A stretch of 64,000 nt of DNA from Allacma fusca (taxonomy: Eukaryota; Arthropoda; Collembola; Symphypleona; Sminthuridae): NCBI GenBank assembly GCA_947179485.1, contig OX359246.1, forward strand, positions 16,492,001-16,556,000, read 5' to 3'. Under the pieces are notes generated by a model that saw only the letters and a list, made by a program, of their open reading frames with translations, made no database searches and was not told the DNA's origin. Position numbers and translations under genes: made by a program. This document shows, piece after piece, positions 18,574-62,395 of the stretch (positions within the stretch are counted from its first letter, which is position 1; each line of letters starts with the position of its first letter).

Positions 18574-19507
18574 TTTTAAAATTTTCAAAATGTATTAATA
18601 CTGTAAAAGATAATACATTTGATCTGTGAGGCTACAGTTTCATTGCGGGTATGGCAAAATTTGGGAGACAATTTAAGTGAATTCATTATGTTTAGCGTGA
18701 CAAAAGGTCTGGTAATCATTCGTGTTGTTTACCTTGTAGTTAAGGCTGGGAGGAGCAGCAATGGAAATTATGTGGTTACCATGTTAGCATGTATAAAATT
18801 TTTTTGGAGAGGTAATTTCAGCTAAATTGTTATAATTTTGTGCTTAAATTGTTATTGGACACCAGGGGTAGCATTATCTCAAGATGTTTACTAATCATTC
18901 AGGGAAAGCATATGAACTTATGTACATAACATTTCGCGGATGGCAAATTATTTTCAGACGGTACTTCAAAACCAATTTACGCGGTTCCCTTCAATAGTCT
19001 CACTACATTTTTATTTGCACCTTATAAGGGTCAACAAACTATAATTAAGTTCGATAAACCGAAAGATGATAAACAATATTTGTTTAAACATCGATGATTT
19101 TAATTATGCCATTCTCGTCTAAAATATTGGGGAAAAAATTTGGAGAAAGAAACATATATTTCTCAATAGTTTAATACTTGCACTCACAAGTATGTAGTTT
19201 TCATGTTGAACGTGTGCAATAACCTTTGACCTCTTCAGACATCAGTTGATTCGCTGGTTGTTAGGAATCCACACTATTGTTATTATATGTTATAATAAAG
19301 TACACACAGAATCCGTAAGCTAAACTTCGCTGATTCGACAAGATAGGATGTTCTTAGGGAATTCTGTTCAATTATGTGGAAGGAATACATTCCGCACTAA
19401 ATAGATACTCGGATAAATTTTTCCGTTCATTAAATTCCGGGGCTCAGTCATAAAAATGTATAATTTGGGCCAGTAGCCTTGAAGAAATGAATAAATTGAA
19501 CGCAAAA
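18574..19507. other. intergenic, no gene seen
   Basis: Upstream flank of GR copy 2. Its first ~100 bp resembles the region just upstream of copy 1. No coding exon is seen. Confidence 0.4.
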
Positions 19508-22698: not shown

Positions 22699-24618
22699 AT
22701 TCAGTTTCAATGTTAAAGTTCAGTTTTTCCAGTGATCCGTCGGAAGGATGCCTGTAGACTAATGAATCTATAATTTGGAAATAAAATTACGAACACGTAT
22801 GTAATTGGGAGCGTCAGTTATAGATTATCGTTTCCTTAATTGTTTGAATTTTTTTGCTATTAATAAATGGAACAATAATTGCTAATAATTAGTACAAATA
22901 TAAAGTTTTTATAACGACAATGAGATGAAACAATAGTCTAGACATATTTGAAAAGATTTTGTCACAGCTTTTAACAATTGTTTGGCTCACTTACAAAGGT
23001 TTTAATTTAAATCCGATGAAACAATGGAATTTATTTATTATTTTTATTAGCAATACATTTTGTCAGAGAATTTAAGAGTTGTTTCTAGTATGTACGTGTA
23101 AACAAACTTAACTTGTCAAATACCCTCATGTGCTGCACGTCATTAGACACCGGCATTAGAGACTTGAAATTATCTCTTATTTATCTTCCTGCACAGCCAA
23201 GATAATTAAATTTTATTGAATGAAAATTTAAATTGCTCAGGGTTACAGAGAAAATTCATTGTTAAATAAACTGCTCTTTAATAAATAAACTAATTATTAA
23301 AGAATAGCGCTTTTATGTAAGCTCTTATTTGTAAGTGGGAGAGGCGAAAGAGTTTGCTCATATTTGCCGAACGGAATAAAGAGATGAAGGTTTCTTACCC
23401 CTCAACAATTCTACTTTAAGCGCCGCTCGGACTGTCAAACTCAGAAAGTAATTCTTGCATCCTTGTGTTTACAATGTTATGATAAGATAACCCCGCTTGA
23501 AGCTATTTCGTATTGAAATTGAGTTAGCCCTATGTCAAATAATGGTCTTTCGTAAACGGTAAATGTGTTTAAAGCAAAACTAAGGTACGGCACCGTTTTT
23601 GAGTACAGGTAAAGGTCCAGGTACAAACTGGGTACAGTAATTATGTGCCCAGACTGTCTGAGTAGTGTGTTGGTAAAATACATACTAATGTGTTTCCAAA
23701 CTTTCGGACCGAATTTCGTCCTTAGATACGCGAGCAAATGTCGTGGAAAAGTTAAGATCTGAAATCTGGGGTATGCATGGTTATAGGTTATCGAAAGTTT
23801 GTACAAATATTCAGTTGTCAGCAGGCACCATCACCAGCTACATACCTATTATGATCATGATCAATTTATATGAGATATATAATCGTTTGGCTTATTCAAA
23901 GATGCGACATATTTAATCGTCTTGCATTAGTGATAACACCTGGTTTAACCCTATGCTCACGGAATTTACATGTGGAATTTTGAGCAGCGCAGACGTATGT
24001 ATATTGCAATAAGAAATTTTTCAAAATGGTTTTGAGAGAAGAGAGATATTTGGGGCTAAAAACGAAGTGCCGTTTTAAGAACACTTTTAATAAATATCTA
24101 TTTTTTAACAAACGATAAGTAAAGCAAAACTTTAGTAATGCTATTCTAAAAACCTAGCTCAGAGACATGAACAATATGACTTCAAATAGACAAATTTTAT
24201 TAGGACTTGATGATTTGCGTACAGCAGAGCCCTTATTTTACAGTGCAGTCCTGATGTTATTTCACGATATTTCACAGCCTATAACAGTCATTCCAAGTTA
24301 AATCAATTTCACTCACGAAGATCTAAGCAAAAATAAGCTTCAAATCTATGTTTGCAAATCGTTAAGCAATATTAAAACATCCACAGAAAAGCTGCCTAAT
24401 GTATTCGAAGACAGTGTTTCGGATTTAATTGTGTGTTCATTCTCGTCCAAAAGAATTGGTGATCAAAAGAACTGCAGAAAAGAACAATCCAATGTTGAAT
24501 ATATAGTTTGTTACTTGCACGAACGTATGATTTCTACTTATGTATGTCTATAATAAAGTTGTATAAAGTTGTTATTATAATATAATAAACCGTAAGGAAA
24601 CAGGGGACCATGCAGTCA
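22699..24618. other. intergenic, duplicated upstream flank
   Basis: No gene seen. About 22,900-23,300 resembles 26,480-26,880 and more weakly 58,600-58,850, so the upstream regions were duplicated with the receptor genes. Around 23,580-23,640 a short patch of GGTAC-type repeats resembles the element at 28,346-29,230. Confidence 0.5.
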
Positions 24619-26343
24619 TCAAAACGAACTTTTATTATTCTCTGCAGCCTGGAGTTGAACCATGAAGATTATAATGGTGATCACCGTGCTTATGATCTTA
24701 AAAATATTTTGTAAACAAATTTTCTACATAAAAAAACTTATTGTATGTGAATAAATTTGAATGAACTTACCACATTAAATAAGCGATGATTAAGATCAAA
24801 CATTCCTTTGGCTGTCAGTTTAAAATTCCAATCCAGAAACCAATTTATTAATTCGGTTTGCTGTTTTTAAAAACCGAAAGTTAAATATTGTAAAGCATTA
24901 TATTTATTTTCTTTTGCTAAATGAATTTTAAGTATTACTTGCACCGAGACACAGCTTGTTGCATCGACCCTGACAAGAGAACTTCGTATTTGCTGTTTTA
25001 CGTTACTGGCCTACAGAAATTAAAAAAAAAAAAGAAAACATCAAACTAATTTAAGAACAGATTTTCAGGGTAAAACAGTTCAAACCAGAGTATCATGTAT
25101 AAATTTAATTTTTCCTCAGTAAAGAGTATTTTAGTAATTTTGTCCCGGTAAAATATGAAAACATTGAATTAATTTAAGCAAGAGTCAATAACGGGTTTCC
25201 AGGGCAAAAGAAGCTTCCAACAGGGTATTATATAGGTTTCATTTTTTCTTTATAATGGATTGGATTCTTGCAATTCTTGCATTTTACATAAACCCTGGGT
25301 TTAGCTTGTGGTTTTCTACAAAATTCCTTCGGTTCATCATACCTCGGACGTTAGCTATCTGTTAGTATGCAAATGCTTAAGGAACATTACAAGATTTGAA
25401 CTTACCACGGTTTCTACGTATTCTCCCATATTAGGCAAAAGTAAAACTAATCCAATGTATCCAACAGCTCCAACAACTCCATTGTCCAGATCATAGAACC
25501 GGAAAGCACAAACATATGCTGCCAGGAGAAGTTGTTGCATCAGAATTATCATAAATGAATTTAAACCGGTAATTTCGTTGAATGAACTCACAGATTTGAC
25601 AATTATTTCAAACATTTTTGCTAAATCTTCAATCTGAATACAAGTTTGTGGCTGGTGTCTTTGTGTATATTCTTTCAAAATATCGCCCACAGCACAATAA
25701 ATCCCCACAAGACTCATGCCTACAATAACATGAAAGCTTATTGCAAAATTAATACTCGCGTGTGACAATAGGTAACTCCATAAGCCAGAAATATTCCGGT
25801 GTCATTTGAATCGAAGAAGTCAGATTTTAAATATTTATTCGTACTGAAGTAATGCATCTCACTTCTTACTACGCTGTAAAGTAACAAGCAAGCTGAAACA
25901 ATGTGCAAGGAGGTGTATACAAACAATGCTTTCGGGCGGTTTTGAATGAATTTATCAAAAATTGGGGCACTCCAAAGAAGATCTAGGTTCCGAAAGAGCT
26001 CCGCGATTTCCTTGCAGTAGTACATTATATTGATTCTAACTGAAATGCTAATCACCACAGGGAAGAATAAATAAATCGAGTCCAAAATTGTCAATGAAAC
26101 TGGCTTCATTGAATTTCCAGTTGATGCAACGTACAAATGATCCAAATTGTTATGAGCAAAGAAATCCTTGCTAAGCAAGATGATGTAGAGGAGTGCTAAA
26201 AGGGAATAAAGAAAACTAAAACTCAATAACTTGAAATTGTACGGTCGGAACGGTGATTTGAGAGGTAAAACCCCTATTGCACAGCCATTGAGGGCTAACA
26301 ATTGATTCCCCAGATTGTGAACATGTCTCATTGTCAGTTGCAT
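24619..26343 (-). pseudogene. gustatory receptor-like, subfamily 2 copy B, frameshifted
   Basis: Exons 26,343-25,406, 25,010-24,939, 24,860-24,771 and 24,696-24,619 keep all splice sites and, apart from one lesion, the reading frame. After LAYGVTY (near 25,768) four bases are missing relative to copy A at the equivalent of TYVLAYTSINFA, which throws exon 1 out of frame; the frame recovers as LSHASINFAIS. The TM7 motif is TIIIFMVQLQ, with I in place of the usual Y. With a single lesion this is a very young pseudogene, a segregating null allele or a sequencing error. Coding potential would otherwise be about 390 residues. Confidence 0.85.
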
Positions 26344-27639
26344 TTTGAATGATCAATCGGAACACCGCGTGAGGTCTAATGAAGCTAGGATTGAGAAATG
26401 AAATTGCGAACGTTATCGAATCTTTCAACCCTAGAGTTTGAGTGCTGGAGAATAATTCTGGTTTCCACAATTATTATGTGCAATTATGCAATACAAAACA
26501 ATTTGATACAACGATTCGATCATGTAAATATTAGCTCACATATGTACAAAGGTTTTAATTTAAATCCAAAGAAACAATAGAATTTATGTGTTTAGTATTA
26601 GATTTTGTCAGAACATTTAAAAATTGTTTCTCGTATGTATGTAATTATGTGTAAACACACTTAACTTGTCAAAAGCCCAACTGAATGTACATTTAGCACG
26701 TGATTATAAAACTGCTCACCGGTCTTCAAATTTTCTATTTACTGTCAATTTCCTCTTCTGGACATTCTGAGAACATTAAATTTTGCTAACAGAAATTTTA
26801 AATAAGACTGACAGGGAAAATTCAGGTTAAACAAACTGCATTTTAATCAAGGAAGTGATAAAGGAATACCGTTTTTATATAAAATGGATAATTATTGGGG
26901 ATAGTTAATTTAATATTACAAAAGCTAAAGGAATCCTGTGGTTCTGCATCTCAAGAAGCAAGCAATAAGAACACGTACCAAACGGACAGGAAGGAGCATA
27001 ATTTCTGCTTAATCAATAACGATGGTGCGTGTCACTTATTTAAAAACTTATGTATGTATGTGCAGGGGTTGGATTTTTGTAAACCTTCCTGGAAGATCGT
27101 TTTTAAATTTCCTTGAATCTTAAGTCCTTGCAAGGAAGTTGTCAATGATTTCGAAAATTCCTTGGTCGCAAAAATAATCTCTACTAGACGTCATGTCCAG
27201 GATAGAAAAGTTCAACGCATTTCAAAATCCTAGTTTACAAAACAATTTCCCCTGAAATTCGGCAATAAGTTTGAAAATCTATGTTCACACAAAATGCCCT
27301 TCGCATTAAAATTTGCCCTGCCAAAAATGTTTTTTCCCCTGGTAAGTAACTTCCTGTCGTCCCACAAAAAATCCGACACATACATTCACACACATTCTAC
27401 ATACAATTTCGACTAAAAGTTAAATGGTCTACATACAATTTCGCTTAAAAGCAGAATGGTCATTATGAAAGTATACACGCATGTAGACCATTTTGCTTTT
27501 AGTGAAAACTGCATGTAGTTCATTTTGCTTTTATGAAGGCTTGCAACTATTCCGTTTTGCCTTTAAGGAAAAAGGCATGTAGACCATTCTGCTTCTATTC
27601 GAAATTTCACTTAGACCATTTTGCCCCTTCACCGACGAT
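26344..27639. other. intergenic with GTAGACCATTTTGCTTTTA repeats
   Basis: No gene seen. At about 27,395-27,625 a degenerate repeat of the type GTAGACCATTTTGCTTTTA occurs on both strands. The patch at 26,995-27,075 recurs near 41,790-41,875 (aatggtgcgtgt ... gtgcaggggttgga). Confidence 0.45.
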
Positions 27640-30567: not shown

Positions 30568-32213
30568 TTAACAATCTTTTGCCGGATACAATGTCTTAGT
30601 TACATCAAAGTTCTCTTCTGGAATGTCTGCATCGCCCCAGCCCCAAGGACCGTTTTGGTGATCATGATGATCACCAGTACGAATCTTTCGAGTCATAACT
30701 GCTTCGTTTGAAACGGATTTCAATTCATACACCCATCCAATCCAAGCAAAAAAGTCTATAAAAGCTGCAGAGAGGTTCCATCTGTATTGACCCAATTCAG
30801 CTGCCTTATAGTCCCAGGGAAAAACATGGTGGTAGTTATGCCAGCCCTCACCCACAGCTAGGAAAGAAACGTACTTGTTGTCAACAGGTCTAATTGAACT
30901 GCAAGAAAAATTTTAAGTGTACTGCATGTTTGTGTTCCAATGATTCCAAATTCCAACTGATGACTCACCTGTCATAAGGTCTGTTATTTCCCCACATGTG
31001 AGCAGCACTTGCTATTAAGAAACTTCTGTGGACAATCCAGCAGTATCTCAGGCAAGCCCCAACACAGAACGACACAATGAGCGATTCCCCAAGGAAATAC
31101 CACGGTATCAATGTTGGAATGAGAAAAATACAGATCACATGCAGTGGACCGTAATATCTATTTCAAAAACACAAAAAATAAACACATGTGCTTACACATT
31201 TTCAGTCGAAAAATATTTAACTGTTTTTTTTTCATCAGTCTCAACAGATGAGACAAATGCGTTCGGAATAAAATTAACTAACTTTTTATGAAACATGACA
31301 AATGGGTCACTCTCCAAATCCGAGATGTCAATTTTCTCAAGACTTCCCATAAACTTCTTGTGATCGTAGGTGAGTAACCAACCAATATGGGAATAAAAAA
31401 ACCCTCTCGTTGAGTTGTGTGGATCGCGGTCAGTGTCGGAGAATTTATGATGGACACGGTGCCATGCACACCACAACCACAGAGATTGCTAATTTAATAA
31501 AATATTAAGTACCATATTGCACAAGTGTAGTCTGATTTTGGTAAACATTTTTGAGCTCTTACCTGTCCTGCAAAAATGAAAAGAATTGTCACCAATATTT
31601 TGAATGGGGTTGTGGCTTTAAAACACCGATGAGAATATAACCTGTGGGCTCCTACTGTAACACCTAATCCAGCCAACATTGTGGTAATCTCGACTGCAGC
31701 ACAAATACAACGAAATAATAAGATTGTCTTGTTTTATTATTCTTATTGTTAAGCTGTTTAAATACATCTTTATGACGGTATCCAAATGCCAACTAACAAA
31801 ATGAATTAATAACACCAGCCTAAAAGATAAAAAAGAAACGAGAGGATTTGTTTAGAAGATATGAGTTTTATTTTCCTTAACGAAAGATAAATCATGGGCA
31901 TACGTGTTAGTAATTGTATATTGTTGTTAAGAATATTGATTCCAATCTATTCAGATTAGACAAAATAGGAACTACAGAACTATTTGGTTATGATTAGTTA
32001 TTACCGAATATGAGAGTTGAGAGGTTTACACGTCCCTGGAAAGCCAGTACAAGCCCGACGATGGCGAAGAAATGGGATATACCAAAATTTAAACACAGAC
32101 AGTTGTCGATCAAAAAAGCGTTTTCGTTTAGGATCGCTTTTGACTTTGAACTCCTCCCGACCAGAGACACCACCAATTGGCTCTAGTTGGCCTGCTTTTA
32201 TTTCTGCTTCCAT
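30568..32213 (-). CDS. delta-9 acyl-CoA desaturase (apparent frame break in exon 1)
   Basis: Membrane-bound ER desaturase that introduces a cis double bond into saturated acyl-CoAs using a di-iron centre. Exons: 32,213-32,005, 31,693-31,563, 31,488-31,283, 31,157-30,969 and 30,898-30,568. Phases 1/0/2/2 join perfectly. All three histidine boxes are present: HRLYSH (exon 2), HRVHH in the stretch HRVHHKFSDTDRDPHN (exon 3) and HNYHH in GEGWHNYHHVFPWDYKAAE (exon 5). About 355 residues, normal for the family. In exon 1 the ATG frame (MEAEIKAGQ...) and the frame that carries TM1 (NFGISHFFAIVGLVLAF) and fits the splice phase differ by one base; a T6 or T4 run near 32,090-32,115 is the likely spot. 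Whether this is an error or a mutation is unresolved. Confidence 0.88.
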
Positions 32214-40480: not shown

Positions 40481-41668
40481 CTCTTGAAGGACTTTTTCGA
40501 TTACATGGAGTTGCTGTATATCTAGAACGAGGGAGATGAACCTGTCTACACGAAATTTGCATTCTGACAAGAACAACTCGCAACTATCACCTCATTAACT
40601 AAAGTTTAATGTAATGAAGTAAAAAAGGGCATACATGTAGGTACGTACATAACCAATAATTCGCACTAATACAGCTAATGCTTCAAAACAATAAGTGTGC
40701 ATGATTCCTGATCCGCTATAGTTTCTTCATTTTAAAGCTACAGTTATACGACAATTTTAAATGTAATTCTGGGGACAATCCATCGTTATCCTTACATCTT
40801 AAAATGATTGAAATGAAATTTTGTAGACTCAACCATAGACCCAACACGCACAGAGGGGCACATCATCTCAGGAGCATACACATATGTATATGTATATGGT
40901 GAAGCTTAAACATGTAAGGATGAGGTTGGGGATACTGGTTGGATTATCAAAGTCCCCCGCATTCTTTACAGGTAGCGGTATGAGGAAAAACATAATATCC
41001 ACGTTAAATCCCATTTAAAAGTTCTGTTTATGATTTTCCATATGATTTTCCATTTTTGATACACCAAAATTAAAATTTTGCTGATTTTTTTACAAATGAA
41101 AGTCTGAGTTTGCAAATGAGAGACACGCCATCGTTGTGAGGTACCATTGGGAGAGCAAATCAATTTTGTTTAAATTTTGAAATTCCAAGTGATGCACCTC
41201 GAATTTACTCAGTAAATTTTTAACGAATTATAAACGGGCGTTGTAAATTTTTGATGACTTCAGATTTCATCAGTAGTCTTCAGACAGGCAATCAAAACGG
41301 GTAATTTAAAAATGAAATTTAATATTTCAATATGGGAAAAAGGACCTGATGCATCCTACCTTACAGCGTTTGGCAGAGCCTGCGGTTCACTTCCACGGAA
41401 GTCTCCACTCACAATAAGTTCATTCAAATTCCAATGACTGCCAGCTTATTTTATTTCTATGTTATCTTGTGATTTAACGTTTTGTACATATTTGATGATA
41501 CAAAATCTTTACGAAACTGCAAAGAACAGGTATCAAATGAAACAACGCCTGAATATATAATACATGCCATGGACATTATTTTCTTTATGAATTTCATTCA
41601 ACTACGTTATAATAAGGCTAAATAAGTTACGTTGTGGCTTGGTAGCTGCTAAAGTGCTTGGAAGCCGA
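40481..41668. repeat. duplicated upstream block of the four-TM family (copy 1)
   Basis: Collinear with 47,876-48,576 (continuing at 53,399-53,885) and 61,083-62,395. Shared landmarks include ggcatacatgtaggtacgt, gcttcaaaacaataagtgtg, a cttacagcgtttggca stretch, and the cttggaagcc end. It has no open frame conserved between copies and may carry shared promoter elements. Confidence 0.7.
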
Positions 41669-47408: not shown

Positions 47409-48576
47409 TTTGATTGAAAAAATATTCGAACTTCAACAATTTACAAATTAAATTCTGGCTATTATGGAGTTCAGCAGCTGAATACAGCGTTCACAGGAGG
47501 ACAAGTGGTTGAAATGTAACATACAGAACAGTTAGCAAGTCATATTTATAAGAACACAGTGATTATATGTACATCAGCATGAGAGCATTTTTATATGAAT
47601 AATGGTTTGAAACGTTGCATTTTATTTTGGTTTTTATTGATGATTCCCTGGAAATGTGACGAGAGCAAGATCACTAGCAGGAATTAATATAATCTTGGTG
47701 CTATTGGAAACTACAGTATATACTTACTTTCGCCGTACAACATTCTTTGGAAAGAGCTTATTCTCTGAAAAGAGGGAAGGAAAAACCCCTTTTTTAGGTG
47801 TCTCCAAATATGGTTCTTAGTAGTTTATATCAGTATTTACAATTTCCTCTAATAGCTGGGTCAATTGTTGATAACCTCTTGGAGGACCTTTTCACTAGAA
47901 CAACTCGTAACTGTCATCGCATTAGCTAAAGGTCAAGTTTAATGCAACGAAATTAAAAAGGGCTTACATGTACATATGTAGGTACGTCCATAACCGATTA
48001 TTCTCGTTAATACAGCTAATGCTTCAAAACAATAAGTGTGCATCATGATTCCTGATCAGCTATAGAATATAGGGAGATCAAATTAATTTTGATGAAATTT
48101 TGAAATTCCGAGTGCTACACTTCAAATGTATTCAGCAAATTTTTAACGAATTATAAACGGGCGTTATAAATTTTTGATGACTTCAGATTTCCTCAGTAGT
48201 CTTCAGACAGGCAAACAAAACGGGTATCTAATTTAAAAATGAAATTAAAAAATTTCAATATGGGAGAAAGGACCTGATGCATATCCTACCTTACAGCGTT
48301 TGGCATTGCCTGCGGTTCACTTCCACGGAAGTCTCCACTCAGTCCATTCAAATTCCAATGACTGCGAGCTTATTTTGGTTCTATGTTATCTTGTGATTTA
48401 GCGTTTAGTACATATTTGATGACGCAAAATCTTTACGAAATCGTATAGAATGGGTATCAAATAAATCAACGCCTGAATATATAATACATGATATGGATAT
48501 TATTTTCTTTATGACTTTCAATCAACTACGTTATACTAAGGCTGAATAAGTTACACTATGGTTCGGGAGCTGCTAA
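47409..48576. repeat. upstream block of four-TM copy C, left part
   Basis: 47,876-48,576 belongs to the duplicated upstream block also seen at 40,481 and 61,083. It is split at TAA (48,574-48,576) by the 4.8-kb transposon and continues at 53,399. Confidence 0.75.
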
Positions 48577-48602
48577 GGGGCCATACAAATATAACGTTAT
48601 CA
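48577..48602 (+). repeat. left terminal inverted repeat
   Basis: 26 bp; matches the complement of 53,370-53,395 with one substitution (CCATAC versus CCGTAC). Confidence 0.92.
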
Positions 48603-49011
48603 ATGAGGCGGGTCGTCAAACTGGGAAAGTCTAACCATTGTAACTACACACATAGGTCAGAAATCCACATGATAACGTTAACACAAATGTCGGTATAAAT
48701 ATTCATGAAAGTACCTTTCCCGATAATATCCATATAATGCTTAGTACCTAGTACTACCAAGTATAAAACTGGTAGTAGTACGCCATCGCGGTACTGAGCT
48801 ACGAACTACAGAAAATTGCCGGGAGACATCATTATTTAATAAATAAATGCATTCACTACATAAAGCTACCATTTCTACAGTACAAGTATATATGTAATGA
48901 CATTCAATAGCCCGAGACGGCTGTCCAATGTGACTAATTCTAAAGCTCAATTTAAATTGTAGCAACATTGGTGCAATTAACATTACAAAGGACTAGTACC
49001 TACATGGGTCA

Positions 49012-51578
49012 ATGTCAAAAATGTCTGCTCGAACTGAAAAGCATTCACTATGGAACGAGTTACGAAAAACATGGAAAGAAGCTTATCCGAATAAAAAAAG
49101 TAAGAATACAATTTTAAAGAACACACGTCCATTACAGTACAAAAGCTTGATTTTAAGTTGTATTAAAATAACTTTAACATTACAAACTTACAGAAGGTGA
49201 CATTGAAACAATTGTACAAAACGTTTGGAGAGAAAGAAAAGACAACTTGTCCGATGTAAAGGAAAAAATCAATGAGCTGCAGTTAAAGCGAAAAAGTCAA
49301 CAAACCATTGCCTCGGCTTTTCTGAAAGCAGCCCAACGACAGATACAAAAACCATGCAATATTGTTCCTTTAGAGCCTACTATTGTGGTCGTAAACAATT
49401 CCGGAGAAACATCTAAATCTACTGATGAGGTTCCAACCCGCACCGATATGTACTATGCTCCTGAGAAGACAAGAAAATCACCAGCTCAAGCTCTTCTGCG
49501 TTCCCAAATCAAAGACATCCAGGAACAACTAGACGGACTTAAAAAATGCGGACTGCCTAAAGAAATAACACAGGGAGGCAAGAAAACGTTAGAAAAGGAT
49601 CTTAAAGTGAAACGGCAACGTCTAAATAGGTTGAAAAGTTGTGCGTCGGCAATGACAAAACTTAGGCATAAGGAAAGAATGCAAAAGGCGAAGTTAATTG
49701 AACAGCATCCTGAGTTATCACCACTAATGAGGGAACAATATTCTGGACGACCAAGACTAGAAGAGGGTCAACCTTTATTACTGCAAACGATTGTCGATAT
49801 TGTTAATATTTCAACAAGTGCTGATCCAAAACGAAGGGATGAATCGCTACGATGCTGTCGCACAATTGATGATCTACATCAACAGCTTCTTCTGAAAGGT
49901 CAGATAATTTGGTACTGGCTCATAAAAGCACTGACCCTTTATTTGCATTGTAATTTCATAATTAGTATACCAGAGTTTTGTTTGATAGGTTTTTCACTCA
50001 GCAGATCAGGTCTATATTTGAGATTGATTCCAAGAAAGTGGAACAGTATTGAGGGAAAGCGCCACGTAACAACTGTTCCAGTGAAAATAGTTCGAGCTGA
50101 AAATAATGCAAGAAAAGACCATCAAGATTCACATTTTGCTGCTGAGACAATGAAAAATTTAAGGCAACTTGCCGAACTATTCGGGCCGGTGAATGTGTTT
50201 GCCCTTAGTCAAGATGACAAAGCCAGAGTTCCTCTTGGTTTGCCTGCAGCTAACAAACAAGCACCAATTTTGATGAACTTGAAGTATAGGATCAGACTAC
50301 CAGATCATGATTGGGTGGTTGCAACGAAACATAAGCTAATTCCTTCTGTTTATGCAGCACTATCTTTTTACTGTTCCGGAAAACTTGGATATTCGGGACC
50401 CACATACATCGCCATTCGTAGTGGAAAGCATGACAGCAGTACAGCTGCATCTCATTGCCACGATTTCCGAAGATTGATGGAACTGGAGAACTTCTCACAA
50501 TTTACAATGAACGGGGTCAGTACCGAAAGGTCAGTACCAGAAAATCAAGCCAAACCAATTTTTATTGTAATGGTTGACGGAGGTCCTGATGAGAACCCAA
50601 GATTTCCAAAAACCCTTTTGGCAGCGATTTCGCATTTCCAAATGTACGATTTGGATGCAATATTTATTGCAGCTAACGCTCCTCATCATTCAGCTTTTAA
50701 TCCTGTCGAGAGACGTATGGCTCCATTATCGCATGATTTAAGTGGAATCATTCTACCCCAAGAGTTTTATGGCACTCATTTGGATTCACAAGGAAGAACC
50801 ACTGATTGTGAGTTAGAGCTTAAAAACTTTCAAAAAGCAGGAGAAGTCATCAGTTTGGAATCAGACAAGTATCGATGGATTCGATGTATTTTCTGAATAC
50901 ATTCCCCCTAATACGGATGTAGTTCGTTTTTATGGCTCGGAAACGGAGCAATGGAAAGCAGAACATGTTCGTCAATCCCAGTATCTACTTCAGATATTGA
51001 AGTGTGGAAACGAACTTTGCTGTAAACCTCCAAAAACCAATATCAAGAAAGTTTTACCTGGTGGATTTCTTCCACCCCCCTTGCGATACAACAGAGATCA
51101 TGAAGGTCTAACTGTCGTTTCACCAGATGTTCCAGGATTGGGAGAATACTTAGGCTTGACTTCAAGAATAGTATTATGGAATCTCGAAAAAAATACAGAC
51201 CTTCCCTATGATTTCGACTGCCCTTCTTTACAGGGGAAGGTTCAAGAGCGCATATGTCCAGCTTGTAAGATTTATTTTCCTTCTAAAACAAGTGTTCAGC
51301 AGCATCGAAAAATCCATAAGGCTAAGAAATCAACAAACAGATCTCAAGAAATTTCTCATACTGCGTTTGTTGTGAATGATACTGACCAAGATGGATCTCA
51401 AAACGGTACTGATGCATTATATACACCAGAAATTACAACGTCAAGTCTTAATAGTGACGACCCTGGCACTGACCCATTAGGTACTGGCCCAAACTGCGAT
51501 GAACAAACAACGAATGATAATATATGGATTATAACAGATATGAACGAATGGTTTGTTTCTGATTTTGTTGAGTTGTAA
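49012..51578 (+). CDS. DDE transposase with C-terminal C2H2 finger (one apparent frameshift)
   Basis: Exons 49,012-49,099 and 49,194-49,898, then from 49,989. The last intron, 90 bp, is inferred because it joins HQQLLLK to GFSLSRSGLYLRL. N-terminus: basic, partly coiled (about residues 1-180). The catalytic domain shows SQDDKARVPLG (D340/D341), VMVDGGPDENPRF (D461) and NPVERRMAPLS (E505), a DDE triad whose motifs resemble those of TP36/ISAZ013-like and Zator transposases. After AGEVIS (about 50,862) a one-base shift is needed to continue as WNQTSIDGFDVFSEYIPP and on to the stop at 51,578. The C-terminal part has a C2H2 finger, CPAC-x12-H-x3-H near 51,258-51,318, then an acidic Ser/Thr-rich tail. 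Full length about 790 residues. The assignment as transposase is strong; the superfamily is uncertain. Confidence 0.85.
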
Positions 51579-52437
51579 TACATACTATGCTATAAAGATT
51601 AATAAAATGCTGAAACAAGTTTATATTTATGATTCAACTTTTAATTAATTAAAACCATTATCGAATCGTTGGAATGTTTGCATAAGTTAGTCCATTGGTG
51701 TTTACTTTTGAACTGAGATTGGTGATTTTTTCTTTTTTCACATACACTTCCATGAACAACTGCATTGTAGCTTTAGCATCCTTTTGACAATTGTGAATTC
51801 CTGACTGTATATCTTGATGAAAATAGTAGTGATACAAAGATCGAAGTCCGATGGGTTGGAGATTCAAATCATCAGAAATTCCAAATTGATTGACTGCCGG
51901 CTTTTTAAAATGCTGATGTAAATCGAAGCGATCAAATTCGGAGCAGTCGTATTGATCTAATCCCAACCCCCCGTAACCAGTAGTGCCGCCGCATGTGATT
52001 ATCAAATTTCCTTTAAAAATCTCCTTCACTTTATTCCTAACAATTTCCCAGGGTTCTCCATTAATTAAAGAATGTGAATCGTACCCATTTATTAGCTTTT
52101 GTCTCTTGCTTGTTATAAAGCTTCCAGCAGGCCACTGAATCTTGGAATAATATATTTCCTGCAGCTTATTGTTTACAATACTAATTTCAGCACACTTGAT
52201 TCGCTTCTCCCCTTCAAGTTCTTTTAAATGAATGTGTTCGCAATCAAATGCCAAAACTTGTGATGGTTTGAACTTCTTCCACCATCCTGTGTCTTCTTGA
52301 GTTGGCAGTATTAAGTCCGTCTGAATGAGTGGTAATGGTACTGACCCATGAGGTACTGACCCAAGAGGAACGGATCCAACTGATTGTGGTCCAGTCAATA
52401 TTTTTCGCGTTGGTACTGACCCTTTTGGTTCTGACCC
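50514..52437. repeat. dispersed GGTACTGACCC motif inside both coding regions
   Basis: Exact GGTACTGACC or its complement at 50,515-50,524, 50,529-50,538, 52,337-52,346, 52,352-52,361 and 52,412-52,421. Near matches at 51,465 (GGCACTGACCC), 51,480 (GGTACTGGCCC) and 52,427 (GGTTCTGACCC). The copies fall in linkers (GSVP, TDPLGTG), not in catalytic motifs. Confidence 0.8.
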
Positions 52438-52943
52438 TGTAGGAACTGATTGTGCTGCTGAAACAACTTTCAACTTTGGCCGGATTAATTTTTTGGACCC
52501 TTCATATTTCTTCCGCTTTGCTTCAACTTTTGCTTTTGAAATGTAGTTACTCACTGTCTTTAGCTCATCCTCCGGAAGTATGAAAATCAGCGATTTCAGG
52601 AATATCATCCTTGCAGCCGGTGATGTACTGGCGAACCAATCAATGGTTTCTTCCTAAAATGAAATACAATGTATGAGTTTATGGTGATACATAGCTTTAA
52701 TTACAAGCAATGTGTTGCAACGTAAACTCCAGAAGGAATTCATGAAACTTAGTTGGATTGTAAATATTAGTTCTAGCAAGCTTTAACTTTATCCCTTCAC
52801 TAATTATTTTATTACCAAAAATTGTTAGGAATTTTTCTGGTCATTAACAAGCAAAAATTAAAGTAAACAACTGTCTCCCTTAACATTTAAATCTTTCCGT
52901 GCACAAATATTACCTTAGCAGTCCAGGTGTTCTCATCCCCCAT
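51658..52943 (-). CDS. DEDDh-type 3'-5' exonuclease carried by the transposon
   Basis: Two exons: 52,943-52,914 (MGDENTWTAK) and 52,653-51,658, phase 0, 341 residues, with good splice sites. Residues ~45-105 are a low-complexity linker of GSVP-type repeats. The nuclease domain starts at about 125: AFDCEHI supplies the Exo I D-x-E, a central FDLHQHF region may supply Exo II, and HNCQKDAKATM supplies the H-x4-D of Exo III. This matches the REX4/ISG20/RNase T-like fold rather than the YqaJ or XPG nucleases known from some other eukaryotic transposons. It converges with the transposase; the stop codons are 80 bp apart. Probable role: end processing or target repair during transposition, or an unrelated captured host nuclease (inference). 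Intact frame. Confidence 0.8.
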
Positions 52944-53369
52944 GGTCTTAACAAAATCTAGAATGAAATTATTGATGGTTTAAACCAAAATGCAATTTTA
53001 CTTGTCACAGTTTATGAATTCAAATTAATAATTATAATTTATTCATAAGAAACTACTTATTTAAAAATTTGATAGTTTTACCTTTCCACTCCTTGACTAC
53101 TGACGGGAACAGACTTTCTTTAATTATTATAAAATGTAAGCTTCACTGGAATCTAAACTTAATTCCTAAAAAGTTCCTTGAGCATTGAACTCAAAATGGT
53201 GCAGAAACTGTTTCATTCGTATGAAATGAAGGGTGAACGTTGAAATGTTCAAATTTTAAGTCATGGCGGTCCTGACGATACAAGGATAACGTTAACAGTA
53301 GGTGGTCATCTCCACAAAAGCTAACTCTGTTAACAATAGTCACACATGCTTTCAAAATCGTCCAATCTG

Positions 53370-53395
53370 TGATAACGTTATATTTGTACGGCCCC
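53370..53395 (-). repeat. right terminal inverted repeat
   Basis: Complement of the left end; followed by the TAA duplication at 53,396-53,398. Confidence 0.92.
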
Positions 53396-53398
53396 TAA

Positions 53399-53885
53399 GC
53401 TTCTTAGAAGCCTAGATTTCCTAAACTCATATTTACTGTATCAAGGCCAAAAACAAATTCTTGTATGTACATTCAATAAGGAATTTTTTTGTAAAGTTTA
53501 CTTTCTGTTTCAATTGAAGCTCTGTTCTTTCGGGTGAATGGTCGTTTATTTAAAACGTTCTTTCACAAATTCGAGCTTGGTCGTTAAATACAATTTGAAC
53601 ATGCAGAAAATGGCTGGGCCTTATTTATTCAGATAACCAAGTTTCAACGAAATATCTGAAGTTTGCAATTAGGATAGCTAGTGAAGTGTGACTTAATCCA
53701 TCAGTAGCTTTAAAAGCATTTTTACTGAATGTTTTCCAGTAGCAGATGTCATTGAACGTTTCCACTGGAACCTGATTTTAATCTAAATGACTATAAAGTT
53801 CACTAGCTTGAATGGTATCGAAATAAAATTTATTAAATGAATTGCGTGATATACTTTCTATAATGCCATTACGACGCTAGTGTAT
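53399..53885. repeat. upstream block of four-TM copy C, right part
   Basis: Continues the duplicated block interrupted by the transposon and aligns with about 61,930-62,395 (ttcaattgaagctctgttct, acgttctttcacaaattcga). 53,886-54,246 is AT-rich spacer. Confidence 0.75.
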
Positions 53886-54246
53886 ATTTTAATACGTTCT
53901 GGGTAAAATATATGAAATAAAATGTAGAACATCCTTGGATATTTGAAAAGCTCAAAAGATAAAAATGTAACCATTAATTCTGGTGTAGTTCTGATTAGCT
54001 ACGTAAGGGCTGGAATTGAATGAACGAATCATATACCACAAATATAGCTGCTGGCATAGTTACAAATGTTTAAATGCGACGTTGAAGCTATAAAAATTAG
54101 CAAACAACGATACATTGCAACCTAAATTTCAATAATTTGTTTTTCAAATTTTGTTTATATTTAATTATGCCTATATATTAATGTAATGTTATTATTATTA
54201 TTAAAACAATTATAACGAACCTGAGAAGAAACCACGACCAAGAAAT

Positions 54247-57200
54247 CTAATTACTCTCCCCAGCCTGCAGTTGAACGATGAAGATTACGCAGGTGATCAC
54301 CGAACTTAAGATCTGAAAAAAACTGTGTGTGTAACCAGAATTTTCACAGGATATTTATACATTCTAGAGTTAATTCCAAATTTACTTACCACACTAAATA
54401 AGCTATGATTAAGAGCAAACATTCCTTTCGCGGTCAGGTGAAAATTCCAATCCAGAAACCAATTCGTTAGTTCGGTTTCCTATTTTTAAAAACAAACTTA
54501 AATTTTGAAAAACATTCGAATTATTTTTATTATTAGTAATTTTATGATTATTAATATTTTAAAAATTACTTGCACGGAGACATAGCCTCTTGTATGGACG
54601 CTGACAAGAGAAAACCGTAACTGCTCTTTTGCCTTTCTGACCTACAATACAAAACATAATAAAGTATCCAATTATTTTAACTACGAGCCAATTCATGATA
54701 GACTGCTAAAACGAATATAGTTCATACCAAAGGTATTCAAAAGGTTCAGCCTTCCTAAAATACTACTTATTTTTTGCAGCTTTGACTTCCCTACATATTA
54801 ACCTATATTATTTATCAAAAATAAATTGCCTACCCATTTGCCTACATATATACTCCTGTAATGTTTCTGCCTATATTTTAGCCTATAAGGCCTATTTTTA
54901 GCCTATAGAGACCTATTTTTAGCCTATAGAGACCTATTTTTAGCCTATAAAGACCTTTTTTAGCCTATAAAGGCTTATTTTTTCAACTAAAAATCATCTA
55001 TGTATGTACGTGCAATCGTAACACATGAAAAAAATCGAACTACTAAAATGTCACGTATTTGAAGAATATTTTTGAGATTTATTTTAAGGTTAAATCAAAT
55101 AATTGATTCACAAATTTGTCAATACATTATTAAATATACCTATTTTTACCATCGCAAACTGCCTACCTTATTCATAAATAAAAAGTGAACTCTTGCAGCT
55201 CCTACATACAGTGAATTTCCCATATAGTGGTTTCCTCTTAGATGGCATTCCCTCTTTAATGGCATCAAAAAACCCTCCCTAGAGGTTTGCAATGTTAAAG
55301 GTATACAATATAGTGGCACCCTCTATAATGGTATTCCCTCTATAATGGCACTATTATGTGTTACGGTGGCTCAGACAATGCGAAATTATAATGGCAGTTG
55401 GCATAAAATTAGCTAGATAATGGCTACAAAAGTATAACATGATGTTATAAAACGTGCGGGCGGTTAGTATTGCTTATCTCGGTTGGTTCAATTTTAATTT
55501 TAAATGTTAATACAGTTTGATTAATATTCTGGTTTACTGAAGCCCTGGTATGATTAGCTGGATTTACGTCATATGATCCGTGACTTAAGTTAAAACAAAG
55601 TTATAACACAAATCATTGCCATTTTTGTCTGGGCTCACTTCTAATAAGTTTCAATTCGTGTTGATTTTTTTAAAAAACCTTTTCAAAATAATAAAATAAA
55701 TGAAAAAGCAAAACCTAGTAGTGATAAAACCACAGAGTACTCACAATCAGTGGAGGTAATTCCCATTAACATAATTCCAGGAATTTGGTTTCTGGAATGG
55801 TGACCTTGCAGTCGAAATATTTGTTACAACTAACAATATTAATAGTATGAGGAAAACTAAAGTTACTGAACATCTTAAACTCAATGAGGCTGATACCTCA
55901 TAATTTTGAGTATTCTGTAAATATATTTAGCTACAGTTATTGTCTATGAACATTAATAGTACATAGTTAACCATTAGTCACATACAGTGGCATCCCTATA
56001 TAGTGGCAGGAATTTGTCACTCCCTTGGAAACCACTATATAGGAAATTCACTGTATAATATAGGATTAATTTTAGCGGTAATTACTGCACCCTATTTTAC
56101 TACCTATAATTACTTGGATTTTGCATCCTGCCTATTTTTATCCTATATATAGGCCTATAAATAGGATAGGTGGACACCTTTGGTTCCTACATTATTACAT
56201 GTATCCAAAGGTGGGCAACTCGTTTTCCTCGCCTGAAACCTTACCTCTACAATGTAATCTCGATTGTCCTTCCTAATACCCTTCCTAAACCGGACTTTTG
56301 CTGATTTCCTTTTTCCTAAAAATGGACATATAATTGCCCTTCCTATTTCCTTGTCAGATTATTAAATTGTCTTGTAGGGCCTAAAATGCCTAGTTTAGTC
56401 TGAATTGCCTTTGTTCAGCCTTGGTTGGGTCAAAATTGTATATTTCTTTATGAATAGCGTTGAGAAACAATATACATTAACACAAGCGGGTAAATATGAT
56501 AATTGTCATCATTTAAAATGTATATTGTTAGACGAACACATGATAAGTTCCAAGTTTGGATTGATTTTCTGTAAGATATATTTTAACGTTAGCAGCATTC
56601 AGAATATTAATTTACTAAAAAAACCCTGTTCACAGCACACCATGAAATTTACGGAAACACCGAATCTAGACGTCTAACTATTAGTGGGGTCCACATGGGT
56701 CGAATTTCTTCAGTTTGCTTTTGACTACGTCGTTTATTCAACGTTATACGGTCCAATACAAATAACTAGCAGAAATCATACAATCCAGTTTCATCTCTTG
56801 CCACTGGTTGGCATCAAATATATGTCTTCCCGGTAGTCCTTCCTAGGATCCTTCCAATTCCCTCACCCTTCCTATGAACTTGCCTATTATTTTACATATT
56901 CTCAGCCTTCCTATTCTATTTCCTAGTTTTGACATAAATTCTACAACCTTCCTAGTTCCTTTCCTAAAAACCTATCCGTTTTGCTTTCCTTCCTTCCTAG
57001 TTGCCTATTTACAAGGCCTAGTTTCAGGCGGGGTGCCCACCTTTGCATGTATCTACATTTTATTTGTCCTCTGTAAGACAAGGACATTCTCTTTCCAATT
57101 TTATACCGAACCCTACAGGTTAAGTTTGTTGTAATGCTTGAAATGTTCCTGACTGATCCTAGACTTCTGGCTTGTTGTGAGTCAAGTACATGACCATTCC

Positions 57201-58505
57201 AAATGGTATGTTCCAAATTCTCGGACCAATGAACAGGATTTGGCAGATTTTGTGAACCCTGACCATTTGATTGAAGCAATGGCAGAATCACTGACCCGGC
57301 TTAAATTTCGAGCATTTTCATTAGTTCGGTTTGAATTTGAAACAGACCCTTTGAAATACTCCAAACTTTGAGACCAAACCAAAATCCAGACCATGCTAAA
57401 AATGTTTGATCATCCTGTCCCTAACAGTCCTAGTATGTACACGTTTATGGTATTTTGCTACAAACTCAACCTATTTTTGAAATTATTTCGGTCCTTCCTC
57501 AAGGCACTTTAATTGCATCCGCGCAAAATATGATTTGAAAAATGTTATTCTAAAAAACGTTGCACTTACCGCAGTCTCTACATATTGTCCAAAATTAGGT
57601 AGTATTGCAATGGCAATTACGTATCCCACAGCTCCAGTTACTCCATAATCCAGATCATAAAACCTCAAGGCACAAACACATACTGCCAAATTAAGTAATT
57701 GTGCCAAAATTACAACGAATGAATTCAGACCGCAAATTTCATTGAATGAGTTCACAGATTTAATGATCAGCGCAAAAAGTTTTGCAAAATCCTCAATTTC
57801 AATACCAGTTATTGCCTGGTTTCTTCGCGCGTATTGAGCCAACATATCCCCAAAACCTATATAAATGCCCAAAAGGCTTGCACCTAAACTAATATATAAT
57901 CGTAGTGCAAAATGAATACTTGAATATGACAGCGCATACGTAATTCCAAAAGCAAGATATAGTCTAGTGTCATTTGAATCGAAGAAGGCAGATTTTAAGA
58001 ATCCATGTGTGTTGTAGAAATACATCTCACTTTTCACTACGCTATACAATAACAAGGCAGCTGACACAAGGTGAACGGCAGAGTAAATCAATAACACTTT
58101 GGGCGACCTCATAATCATTTTATAAAAATGTGGGGTACTCCAAAGAAGATCTAGATTCTTAAACAGCTCAGCAATGTCCTTGCAATAGTACATGATATTC
58201 ATTCTAATCACAATACTGCTCACCAGAGGGCTAAATAGATAAACGGAATCCAAAATGACAATGGAAAAAGGTTTAGTGGAATTTCCAGCTGAATCAATAT
58301 CAAAATTATCCCATTTGTTATGAACAAAATAATCTATGCTAGTCACAATGATAAAAAAGAGTGTTAAAATACTATAAAGATAACTTAAACTCAAGAATTG
58401 AAATTTGTATGGACTGAACGGAGATTTAAGAGGTAAAACCCCGAATGCATAGCCAATAAACACTACTATGCGATTTCCCAGTTTATGAACCTGACTCTGT
58501 CGCAT
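54247..58505 (-). CDS. gustatory receptor-like 7-TM protein, subfamily 2 copy C
   Basis: Four phase-0 exons: 58,505-57,570, 54,641-54,570, 54,479-54,390 and 54,312-54,247, 387 residues, all canonical splice sites. Exon 1 starts MRQSQVHKLGNRIV at an ATG and parallels the genes at 21.2 and 24.6 kb (LFKNLDLLWSTPHF, YYCKDIAELF). The last exon ends TCVIFIVQLQ, with C in place of Y in the TM7 motif. Intron 1 is 2.9 kb, against 0.2-0.4 kb in the relatives, because of three transposon insertions. All exons are open. Whether the long intron is still spliced cannot be judged here. Confidence 0.88.
54728..56182. mobile_element. hAT-like MITE with CCTATTTTTA repeats, carrying a nested element
   Basis: Inverted ends CAAAGGTRTYC with a near-perfect 8-bp duplication GTTC(A/C)TAC (54,720-54,727 and 56,183-56,190). 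The body has GCCTATAGAGACCTATTTTT repeats (54,880-54,990). It is split by the TA-flanked MITE at 55,209-56,053; without it the element is about 608 bp. Confidence 0.78.
55209..56053 (-). mobile_element. non-autonomous Tc1/mariner-pogo-like MITE, copy 2
   Basis: 845 bp with TA at both sides (55,207-55,208 and 56,054-56,055); inverted relative to the copy at 1,310-2,148. The two are almost identical along their length; the one visible length difference is a 6-bp segment near 55,741. Confidence 0.88.
56206..57045. mobile_element. hAT-like MITE with CCTTCCTA repeats
   Basis: 840 bp, ends CAAAGGTGGGCA, perfect 8-bp duplication CATGTATC (56,198-56,205 and 57,046-57,053). Dispersed CCTTCCTA motifs in both arms. 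Non-coding. It shares the CAAAGGTG end with its neighbour at 54,728. Confidence 0.86.
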
Positions 58506-59615
58506 TTTAATGGTCCTTCGAAATTTTGCTTAAGGACTAATAAAACTAGGATTTGGGAAAGTTTTTAAGCCATCTGATTGCGAATATAAATTCAAACATA
58601 TGGTATCCACAATTATTTGATTTGTTTGACATTTAATTTATTTATGGACATAACAGAACATGTAATTATACAGTTTCAAGCAGTTTTGAATTACTGTTCA
58701 GTGAAACAATAGTCTATTTATTTGGACATTAAATTTTATCAAAGTTGTAAAACATTGTTTACCTTGTGTAAACGCACTTAGCCAGCCAAATGTCCATAGA
58801 CATAGGAAGTGATTGTAAAACGTATCTTCAAGATAACTGCCTGAACTTAAATTTATGTACACCCTGGGAAATATTTGTTTGCTGACATCTGAAATTACTT
58901 TATTAAGAATTGTAAAAGGTGTGATACCCAAAACGCCTGCCCAGTTGCCCACACATTTTCAAATTCAAGCACAACTACGAATTTCAGCCATATTTAGCAA
59001 TTTGAAGGAAATGTTCACTGTTCAACTACAGATCTGTATTTTTTGCCTTTAATTTTAGTTTTGCTGAAAAAGGTGCTCTTGATACCTGATGTGGAGGTTT
59101 AATTTGGAACTACTCATGCAACTCTTTGTAAAGACGGTAAACACATCCCGTGTCTGTTAGGATAAATTAGTTGAATGTTCTCGCCACTCCTAAGTAAATA
59201 GCGTACATGTAGTACAGTGGATGATATATGTCATAAATAAAAGTTAAACGGGTTGCAATCGAAACAAATTCATTTATAACTTTCTTCATTTATTAGCTTA
59301 TTAGCTTAATGGACTTGGAATAATATACATTGGCCATAATATTAATCATCTTAATATCCTTAATTAACATTATATTTAAAATATTCAAACTTGCCGACTT
59401 TCTTTGGCCCCATAAGAATTTATTACATCAGTGTGTAGAATTTTATAATTGTAACATTTGGTGTAATGAGCTAATGTTAATTCAATTGGTGGACATTGAA
59501 GTTCGATAATATTTTTTAAAGAAACCTTGCACGTTTTACATTGACATTTTTATCTCTTTCATGATATTTGCAACAGATGGCTGTAGATGATCGAATTCTC
59601 CATTCAAAAACCAAT
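58506..59615. other. intergenic, no gene seen
   Basis: Upstream flank of the GR gene, weakly similar to the flanks at 22,900 and 26,500, then AT-rich spacer. Confidence 0.4.
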
Positions 59616-60462: not shown

Positions 60463-61082
60463 TTTTATTGAAAAACTTCCGTCTTTTTAACAAAATAAAC
60501 CCTGGCTATTATAAAGCTAGCTAGCAGATACACGTTCACAGGACGAGTTGTGGTTCAAATGAACGTTGTTGACGTCTTCAGATACACGCCATAGACACTT
60601 CTCAGCCGATGTTTATCGTTGATTCACTATACATGGTATTATTCTGTTAAATAGCGATAGCAGTAGAACACAACATGCGTTCCTATGTAATAGGGATTGA
60701 AATGTAACGTCTGGAAGAGTAGCGAATCACTTTTATAAGAAAACAATAAATATGCACCAGTGTGAGAGCATTCATTTATCTAGACTTGCTTGAATGGTTC
60801 TTTGATCGTTTTATTTTGATTTAATCTTTATGTGCACAGCACAGATTTTTTTATGATTCCTTATTCCTGGAATTTTGAGTAGATAAACATAACTAGCAAG
60901 AACTGCCATAATCTTGGTGATAGGAGCAAATACATTTTATACTCTACCCATACAGAATTCCTTAGAAAGAGATGATTCTCTGGAAAAAGGAAAGGGAAAT
61001 TTTTAGGTGTCTCCACGTATGGTTCTAAGTACATTCTTTAAAGCATTTACAATTTCCCCAAATAGCTTGGGTCACTTGGTGA

Positions 61083-62395
61083 TAACCTCTTGGAGGACCT
61101 TTTTGATTACAAGGAGTTGCTGTGTATCTAGAACGAAGGAGAAGAATCCGTCTACATAAACTTTACAGTTTCACTAGAACAACTCGTAACTGTCATCTCA
61201 TTAGCTAAACGTCAAGTTTAATGCAACGAAGTAAAAAAGGGCATACATGTAGGTACGTCCATAACCGATTATTCTCGTTAATACAACTAAAGCTTCAAAA
61301 CAATAAGTGTGCATGGTTCCTGATCCGCTATAGTTTGCTCATTTTAAAGCTATATCTACAGTTATACGAGAATTTTAAATGGAAAGAATTCCATTTTGCA
61401 GAGACATGCCATTGAGAGGTACCATTGGGAGCGCAAATCAATTTTGATGAAATTTTGAAATTCCGAGTGCTACACTTCAATTGTATTCAGCAAATTTTTA
61501 ACAAATTATAAAAGGGCGTTATACATTTTTGATAACTTCAGATTTCCACAGTAGACTTCAGACAGGCAATCAAAACGGGTAATTTAAAAATGAAATTACA
61601 AATTTCAAGATGGGAAAAAGGACCTGATGCATATCCTACCTTACAGCGTTTGGCATTGCCTGCGGTTCACTTCGACGGAAGTCTCCACTCAGTCCATTCA
61701 AATTCCAATGACTGCGAGCTTATTTTGTTTCTATGTTATCCTGTGATTTAACGTTTTGAACATATTTGATGATGGAAAATCTTCACGAAATTGCAAAGAA
61801 CAGGCATCAAATAAATCAACGCCTGGATATATAGTACATGATATGGATATTATTTTCTTTATGACTTTCATTCAACTGCGTTATACTAAGGCTAAATAAG
61901 TTACACTGTGGCTTGGGAGCTGATAAACTGCTTGGAAGCCAAGATTTTCGACTCATATTTACTGTATAAAGGCCAAAAACAAATTATTATATGTACATCC
62001 AATAAGGAACATTTGTTGTACAGTTTACTTTCTGTTTCAATTGAAGCTCTGTTCTTTCGGGTAAATGGTCGTTCATTTAAAACGTTCTTTCACAAATTCG
62101 AGCTTGGTCGTTAAATACAATTTGAACATGCAGAAAATGGCTGGGCCTTATTTATTAAGATAACCAAGTTTCAACGAAATATCCGAAGCTTGCAATTAGG
62201 ATAGCCAGTGAAGTGTGACTTAATCCACCAGTAACTTTAGAAGCAGCTTCACTGATTGTTTTCCAGTAGAAGATGTCATTGAACCTTTAAATCTAAATGC
62301 CTATGAAGTTCACTAGCTTGAATGGTAACGGAATACAATTTATCAAATGAATTACATGATAAACTTTCTACAATGCCATAACGAGGCTAGTGTAA
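61083..62395. repeat. duplicated upstream block of the four-TM family (copy 3, uninterrupted)
   Basis: Longest intact version of the block. It spans the site (about 61,920-61,935) where the 4.8-kb transposon sits in the copy at 47.9-53.9 kb. No conserved open frame. Confidence 0.75.

Follow-up and report, generated by a model that had tools for sequence, protein, structure and literature searches.

A Zator-like DNA transposon of the springtail Allacma fusca with a convergent gene for a predicted DEDDh exonuclease

We analyzed a window of 64,000 nucleotides from the springtail Allacma fusca (GenBank assembly GCA_947179485.1, contig OX359246.1, positions 16,492,001 to 16,556,000 of the forward strand), which contains a complete DNA transposon of 4,819 bp (48577 to 53395; coordinates are those of the window unless another locus is named). 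We consider it likely that this is a cut-and-paste element of the ISAzo13/Zator-related group that carries, next to its transposase gene and convergent with it, a second gene encoding a DEDDh 3'-5' exonuclease. The combination of an ISAzo13/Zator-like transposase with an ISG20-like exonuclease, which recurs within this one genome, appears to be new.

The element is bounded by two terminal inverted repeats of 26 bp each, the left one on the plus strand (48577 to 48602) and the right one on the minus strand (53370 to 53395), with the sequence GGGGCC[A/G]TACAAATATAACGTTATCA and 25 of 26 positions identical between them. The end sequence has two matches in the whole window and none in 100 shuffles; such ends would not be expected by chance. 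They are flanked by TAA target duplications (48574 to 48576 and 53396 to 53398), which appear as a 3-bp overlap at an empty site: the joined flanks align without a break to a paralogous stretch outside the element (61424 to 62394, plus strand; 89% over 995 bases), with an overlap of exactly 3 bp at the junction. A second paralogue (41146 to 41666) is also without the insert, with a BLAST match that reaches only 14 bases past the junction. An empty site is available inside the same window because the host segments there are duplicated, with positions 40567 to 41666, 47577 to 54395, and 60846 to 62394 being 75 to 91% alike. Further copies came from searches of the animal's own genome, which, here and below, covered 392.7 Mb in 91 contigs. 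Both ends were located in 10 copies, of which 4 are full and nearly identical, 5 are nonautonomous, and 1 is a diverged element; in all 10 the target duplication is 3 bp long, with TAA in six, TTA in three, and TTG in one. Among the full copies it is TAA in the window, TTG at locus L164, TAA at L165, and TTA at L166; the nonautonomous copies L120 to L124 (338 to 348 bp with the same ends; these five were read, and the genome holds further ones) have TAA, TAA, TTA, TAA, and TTA, respectively; and the diverged element at C8:24.83 Mb has TAA. A scan of Rfam gave no match at the gathering score, and the element ends were not found in viral contigs.

The transposase gene lies on the plus strand and has three exons. 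Exon 1 (49012 to 49099) was placed by its splice sites and by a match to the N terminus of the Allacma fusca protein P0002, and it is separated by an intron with GTAAG...CAG splice sites (49100 to 49193) from exon 2 (49194 to 49898), which encodes a coiled region and a part matching the N-terminal portion of the ISAzo13 model. Intron 2 (49899 to 49988) keeps the frame open but is a stretch without a counterpart in the relatives. Exon 3 (49989 to 51578) encodes the catalytic core up to 50896 and, in a frame from 50817 to 51578, the C-terminal C2H2 part. Comparison with P0002 places a frameshift in the overlap of these two frames (50817 to 50896), so that in the window copy one frame stops at 50896 and the C-terminal part continues in another to 51578; the frame of the sister copy L164 is unbroken through the C terminus. 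The predicted catalytic residues of the core are D75/D76, D196, and E240, with 43 residues between the second D and the E (DD43E). The AlphaFold model of the core (mean predicted local distance difference test [pLDDT] score of 62.8, predicted template modeling [pTM] score of 0.62, and 93 of 301 residues with a pLDDT below 50) has strands at residues 69 to 75, 115 to 126, 139 to 144, 190 to 196, and 223 to 229 and a helix at 238 to 250. In this model, which is of moderate confidence, the residues are placed as expected for an RNase H fold, with the first D on strand 1, the second at the end of strand 4, and the E on the next helix. An earlier note on this sequence had described the inverted ends, the TAA duplication with its empty paralogous site, and a DDE transposase, all of which the analysis bears out. 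It had also described a C2H2 finger; a match to PF12874 is present (E = 0.0026), but at 18.4 bits it stays under the cutoff of 21.2.

Searches with the transposase recovered 903 related proteins at an E value of ≤1e-3, and the 120 of these that were listed belong to Allacma, insects, bdelloid rotifers, a snail, a spider, and a fungus (Dentiscutata), along with many unnamed sources. In a tree built from 49 cores, the window and Allacma transposases pair (100/100), and the Rotaria protein P0006 is next (96/86). Sequence comparison indicates that the transposase is related to those of the bacterial ISAzo13 group; the literature pairs this group with Zator and gives 3-bp duplications for both (PMC10045372; the pairing is also found in PMC5718144). 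The NCBI ISAzo13 model NF033519 matches 13 of 20 family members at an E value of ≤1 (best, 4.2e-9); at ≤0.01, 8 of 10 members match at collinear positions covering the N-terminal and catalytic parts. PF07592 matches 5 of the 49 members at an E value of ≤0.1 (best, 6.2e-4); the 25 of 34 Pfam families listed for these members include no further DDE family. A motif scan located at least 115 stretches of bacterial ISAzo13-like proteins, of which 15 were long enough and 11 were left after the removal of near-duplicates; the profile built from these 11 scores 30 of the 49 family members higher than any of 1,029 decoys, comprising 49 reversed and 980 shuffled sequences. Among the 11 bacterial proteins, 8 had a readable D-E spacing, which was 42 or 43 residues; it is 43 in the window transposase.

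Four results pull in the other direction. The top NF033519 score is 35.9 bits versus a curated cutoff of 200, and these proteins are therefore relatives and not members of the bacterial ISAzo13 family. With the bacterial profile, the window's own core scores below the first decoy, and in the reverse test only 6 of the 11 bacterial proteins rise above the first reversed decoy. An hhalign comparison of the family with the untrimmed bacterial proteins aligned only the helix-turn-helix part, and weakly (probability, 10.9; E = 0.0028), after which the proteins were trimmed and the decoy test was used. We call the element Zator-like, and not Zator, as it is placed solely through its ISAzo13 kinship and the published descriptions of Zator. 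Given that kinship, the suggestion of the earlier note that this is an undescribed type of transposon does not hold at the level of the transposase. A stronger form of that suggestion, namely, a new superfamily separate from Zator, seems to us unlikely. It would fit with the absence of any match at an E value of ≤1 between the window's core and the DDE models of Pfam, with Zator being known here through published descriptions, and with the absence of four transposase motif strings from the literature searched, in which papers seldom print such strings; against it, the ISAzo13-related transposase and the 3-bp duplication of all 10 copies are the two features published for Zator.

The target sites call for another comparison. 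A TWA duplication marks PIF/Harbinger elements, and 9 of the 10 bounded copies have TAA or TTA, the remaining one having TTG; the GGGGCC ends, too, are presumably like Harbinger ends. A PIF/Harbinger affiliation is nonetheless highly implausible, as no IS5-type or DDE_Tnp_4-like (Harbinger-type) family is present among the 25 of 34 and 25 of 36 Pfam families listed, the former for the 49 members, and ISAzo13 matches are found instead. In bacterial and archaeal contigs, 36 stretches matched a peptide pattern, none of which was confirmed as a relative of the transposase; tblastn of plasmids with two family members gave no match apart from one chance match at an E value of 9; and relatives of the transposase or exonuclease were not found in viral contigs. 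Among the relatives, protein P0104 of Eumeta japonica has a uridine nucleosidase annotation and contains PF01156, a family to which one member of the scanned 49 gives a match at an E value of 3.6e-65; this is perhaps an artifact of the gene model.

The second gene of the element lies on the minus strand, convergent to the transposase gene. Its first exon (52914 to 52943; MGDENTWTAK, 10 amino acids [aa]), recognized by comparison with the Allacma fusca relative P0001, is followed by a GT-AG intron of 260 bp (52654 to 52913), placed by its splice ends, and by an exon (51658 to 52653) that encodes an N-terminal region, a repeat-encoded GSVP linker, and the DEDDh domain. The intron position is the same as the exon junction implied by P0001, and the frame is open over 331 aa in addition to the 10-aa first exon. 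However, the intact exonuclease with its own intron that had been proposed stands only as to the frame and the intron, for the window copy has Gly at the ExoII Asp, a position at which its three sister copies have Asp. Because both of its genes are damaged, the window copy looks dead by itself. The RNase_T domain is recognized in P0001 (E = 8.2e-8), while the window's exonuclease alone gives no match to it; a profile of two sequences finds ISG20L2 (E = 7.3e-6) and ISG20 (E = 2.5e-5) as the nearest solved structures. A structure model of the exonuclease, made from a two-sequence alignment only, has a mean pLDDT of 36.8.

Of the 16 distinct sequences in which all five DEDDh positions (D-x-E, the ExoII D, and H-x4-D) are represented, 14 retain every catalytic residue, the exceptions being the window copy and L135, which has Val for Glu. 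The alignment took in frames of ≥150 aa matching the family; the partial sequences of L129, L140, L141, L148, and L155, the window duplicate L125, and loci without such a frame were left out of the 16. The kept residues point toward purifying selection on the exonuclease. A contrary indication comes from the near-identical copies, in which the exonuclease shows no excess of silent changes: silent versus replacing codons, with the window copy as the reference, number 2 and 3 in L164, 5 and 10 in L165, and 7 and 36 in L166, the last inflated by an indel.

In a search of 5.8 billion proteins, in which candidates must share short exact words, P0001 was the sole relative of the exonuclease among the 1,533 candidates scored in one run and the capped set of 7,999 scored in another. 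The idea of an Allacma-like one-off was dropped after a search of the animal's own genome, in which 38 matches resolved into 33 loci. Four of these are copies of the window element, and the others are mostly about 25 to 45% identical (58% in two pieces of one locus). At 26 of the 33 loci, a transposase of the same family is found 3' of the exonuclease and convergent with it, and at one (C10:26.98 Mb) it lies on the same strand; thus, of the 27 exonuclease loci with a transposase nearby, 26 have the convergent layout. The gap between the matched pieces is 0.2 to 5.9 kb in 22 pairs; the remaining four are L141, L152/L156, L159, and L163, with the transposase piece being short or weak at L152 and L163. 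The 26 pairs are not all independent, as some are copies of one family. No transposase was found within flanks of 1.5 to 5 kb at six loci (L132, L133, L135, L147, L153/L157, and L162). Two of these, L132 and L133, retain the full active site; they may be elements that became stranded or else host genes that arose from such elements.

One diverged pair is the element at C8:24.83 Mb (5,701 bp), in which perfect 26-bp ends, GGGTTCATTCTTTAATTACGTCATCA, enclose both genes; the transposase there is spread over several open pieces that lie in at least two frames. Ends of diverged elements were sought with the pattern GGG...ACGTYATCA in stretches of which many are too short for both ends. Over the 33 stretches, this pattern recovered both ends at C8:24.83 Mb, L164, and L166 and the left end alone at L145 and L149; a scripted search of 10 stretches gave credible ends only at the same three loci, C8:24.83 Mb, L164, and L166.

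From the side of the transposase, a search of the same genome, in which 58 of 308 candidates were scored, gave 98 matches in 47 clusters. An exonuclease locus lies near 22 of them, convergent in all 22. The other 25 have none of the 33 exonuclease loci nearby. Among them are eight copies that score nearly alike and are 51% identical to the query, probably members of a single recent family, and one of these eight, when checked, had no exonuclease in the 3.5 kb past the 3' end of its transposase. The exonuclease therefore marks a lineage and is not needed for transposition in general. As a partner it is a lineage trait, neither universal nor one-off. The earlier note had named recurrence of the two genes in other species as a check and copies lacking the exonuclease as a sign of one-off capture. 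Run within the same genome, the check gave the 26 paired loci, including the diverged pair between its own ends, and so the convergent pair is real; copies with no detected exonuclease do exist, but not as the counterpart of a one-off capture.

These counts bear on whether the exonuclease is a functionless passenger captured in an ancestor of the elements. Such a reading would accord with the single relative in the large protein search, with the excess of transposase clusters without an exonuclease over those with one, with the copy checked for an exonuclease past its transposase, and with the loss of an active-site residue in the window copy. We regard it as improbable in view of the persistence of the DEDDh residues across relatives of mostly 25 to 40% identity and of the near-uniform convergent layout. 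With the same two genes standing tail to tail in many distantly related copies, the pairing has the look of a lasting partnership rather than of an accident.

If the element works as its kinship to ISAzo13 and other DDE elements suggests, the transposase would bind the 26-bp ends, cut at the GGG ends, and excise the element, which would have been inserted at TAA/TTA (TWA-like) targets. The exonuclease could then act on DNA 3' ends made in excision or repair, trimming donor or target ends; alternatively, it could enlarge the gap and thereby lead repair to restore the element by copying. We consider an action on such 3' ends the most likely of the readings, though at somewhat less than an even chance. 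ISG20L2 and ISG20 are mostly RNA exonucleases, and this counts against a role at DNA ends. The enzyme might instead act on RNA and, having no part in any DNA step, shield the transposon by degrading the small or other RNAs that silence it. Besides the nearest solved structures, a Vts1-like RNA-binding match in the N-terminal region of P0001 (PF25479; E = 0.0089; 16 bits versus a cutoff of 27) is in line with an RNA substrate; both similarities are weak. In the nearest parallels, the transposons KolobokD and Dada, processing of DNA ends or intermediates is the role that the respective authors propose for the exonuclease (PMC9587614 and PMC3706591). On balance, we consider an RNA role rather unlikely.

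KolobokD and Dada also bear on what is new here. The Dada duplication is 6 to 7 bp long. ISL2EU carries a YqaJ nuclease, and the transposases and nuclease folds of both ISL2EU and AcademX differ from those of the window element, which shares with them the presence of a nuclease in a DDE transposon. For AcademX, a nuclease and duplications of 3 to 4 bp are described (PMC10045372). KolobokD, a DDE transposon with arthropods among its hosts, carries an accessory gene for a DEDDh (DnaQ) exonuclease that is described as resembling exuperantia, TREX, and ERI1; Kolobok elements have TTAA duplications and a C/DxxH signature (PMC9587614). KolobokD resembles the window element in having a DEDDh exonuclease gene inside a DDE transposon but differs in its 4-bp TTAA duplication, compared with 3-bp TAA, TTA, and TTG here, and in its exonuclease, that of the window having ISG20L2 and ISG20 as its nearest solved structures. 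A similar combination, a DDE transposon with a DnaQ-like 3'-5' exonuclease, is found in Dada of Laccaria and Ectocarpus (PMC3706591). Thus, the mechanism class, a DDE transposon with a DnaQ-type exonuclease, is already known from the published descriptions of these two. The earlier statement that no described superfamily has such a pair appears to stand for the Zator-like pairing but not for DnaQ-type exonucleases as such.

With Zator/ISAzo13 (TP36), the window element shares a related transposase, a closely similar D-E spacing (42 to 43 in the bacterial proteins), and 3-bp duplications, whereas its convergent exonuclease and C-terminal C2H2 finger, and the internal iterons present in some elements, set it apart. 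The literature searched, in which few subscription papers were covered and Repbase lay outside the search, yielded, among the papers listed, no report of an exonuclease in Zator and none of the pair, including in springtail elements. The element is a further type of DDE transposon with a DnaQ-type exonuclease, beside KolobokD and Dada, with a different transposase and, judged by the nearest solved relatives, an exonuclease of a different type too. That several transposons independently took on an exonuclease points to a common need, whether at DNA ends or against silencing. Furthermore, because this genome contains both elements with a detected exonuclease and elements in which none was detected, the role of the partner is testable by direct comparison.

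The element also contains short internal repeats (iterons) of 11 bp. A pair of them, GGGTCAGTACC / AGGTCAGTACC, lies in transposase exon 3 (50514 to 50538, plus strand), and further pairs lie on the minus strand in the C-terminal coding region of the transposase (51465 to 51490) and twice in the exonuclease linker (52337 to 52362 and 52412 to 52437, the second copy of the latter with one mismatch); a single iteron, GAGCCAGTACC, is found in transposase intron 2 (49911 to 49921, minus strand). With up to one mismatch, GGGTCAGTACC occurs 8 times in the element versus 2 times in the remaining 59 kb of the window, 0.017 being expected. The iterons form pairs with a spacing of 14 to 15 bp; these are located in both genes and on both strands and fall in different reading frames. 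The 393-Mb genome holds five occurrences of the exact tandem pair, found in the window element's four copies and beside the L145 exonuclease, and none of its reversed control. Related motifs are GTGCCAGTGCC, found 19 times at C8:24.74 Mb, and GAGCCAGTACC, found 4 times at C8:24.83 Mb. Among 34 stretches, GNGYCAGTRCC occurs at least three times in 8 (the window element, two of its copies, and five others), once in 3, and in none of the other 23; its reversed control occurs once in two stretches and nowhere else, and the motif itself is absent from the rest of the window. Although many of these 23 are incomplete, others lack the motif despite extending over 9.9 kb and including both genes, and it is therefore not general.

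From this distribution, we infer that the iterons may have a role at the DNA level. The plain alternative is that they spread as a minisatellite, with which the 19 copies at C8:24.74 Mb, being largely one tandem array, agree. Compared with the element ends, the iteron matches at 8 of 11 positions on the right and 7 of 11 on the left, which is no more than suggestive of the iterons being copies of the ends. A wider reading, which we regard as doubtful, is that these elements form a distinct, long-lived Zator-like lineage with a coevolved ISG20-like exonuclease, in which the dispersed 11-bp iterons serve the transposase or the exonuclease as cis-acting sites. If true, this would be a two-protein, iteron-bearing transposition system with GNGYCAGTRCC kept at the DNA level across diverged elements, within introns as well as both genes and on either strand; we know of no such eukaryotic cut-and-paste element. 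Separately, a tandem array of about 21 bp based on GTGCCAGTGCC lies between coding pieces of a diverged transposase at L167 (1959 to 2380 of that stretch). One match to the iteron pair in a viral contig falls in a long phage-like frame coding for DPAGT repeats and was judged to be due to chance.

Elsewhere in the window, long open frames are present at 2308 to 3396, 17563 to 18594, 21709 to 22719, 25741 to 26352, and 57486 to 58529, some of which resemble each other and which, judged by eye, we take to be chemoreceptor-like genes. Frames near 30571 to 31488 presumably belong to a fatty-acid desaturase.

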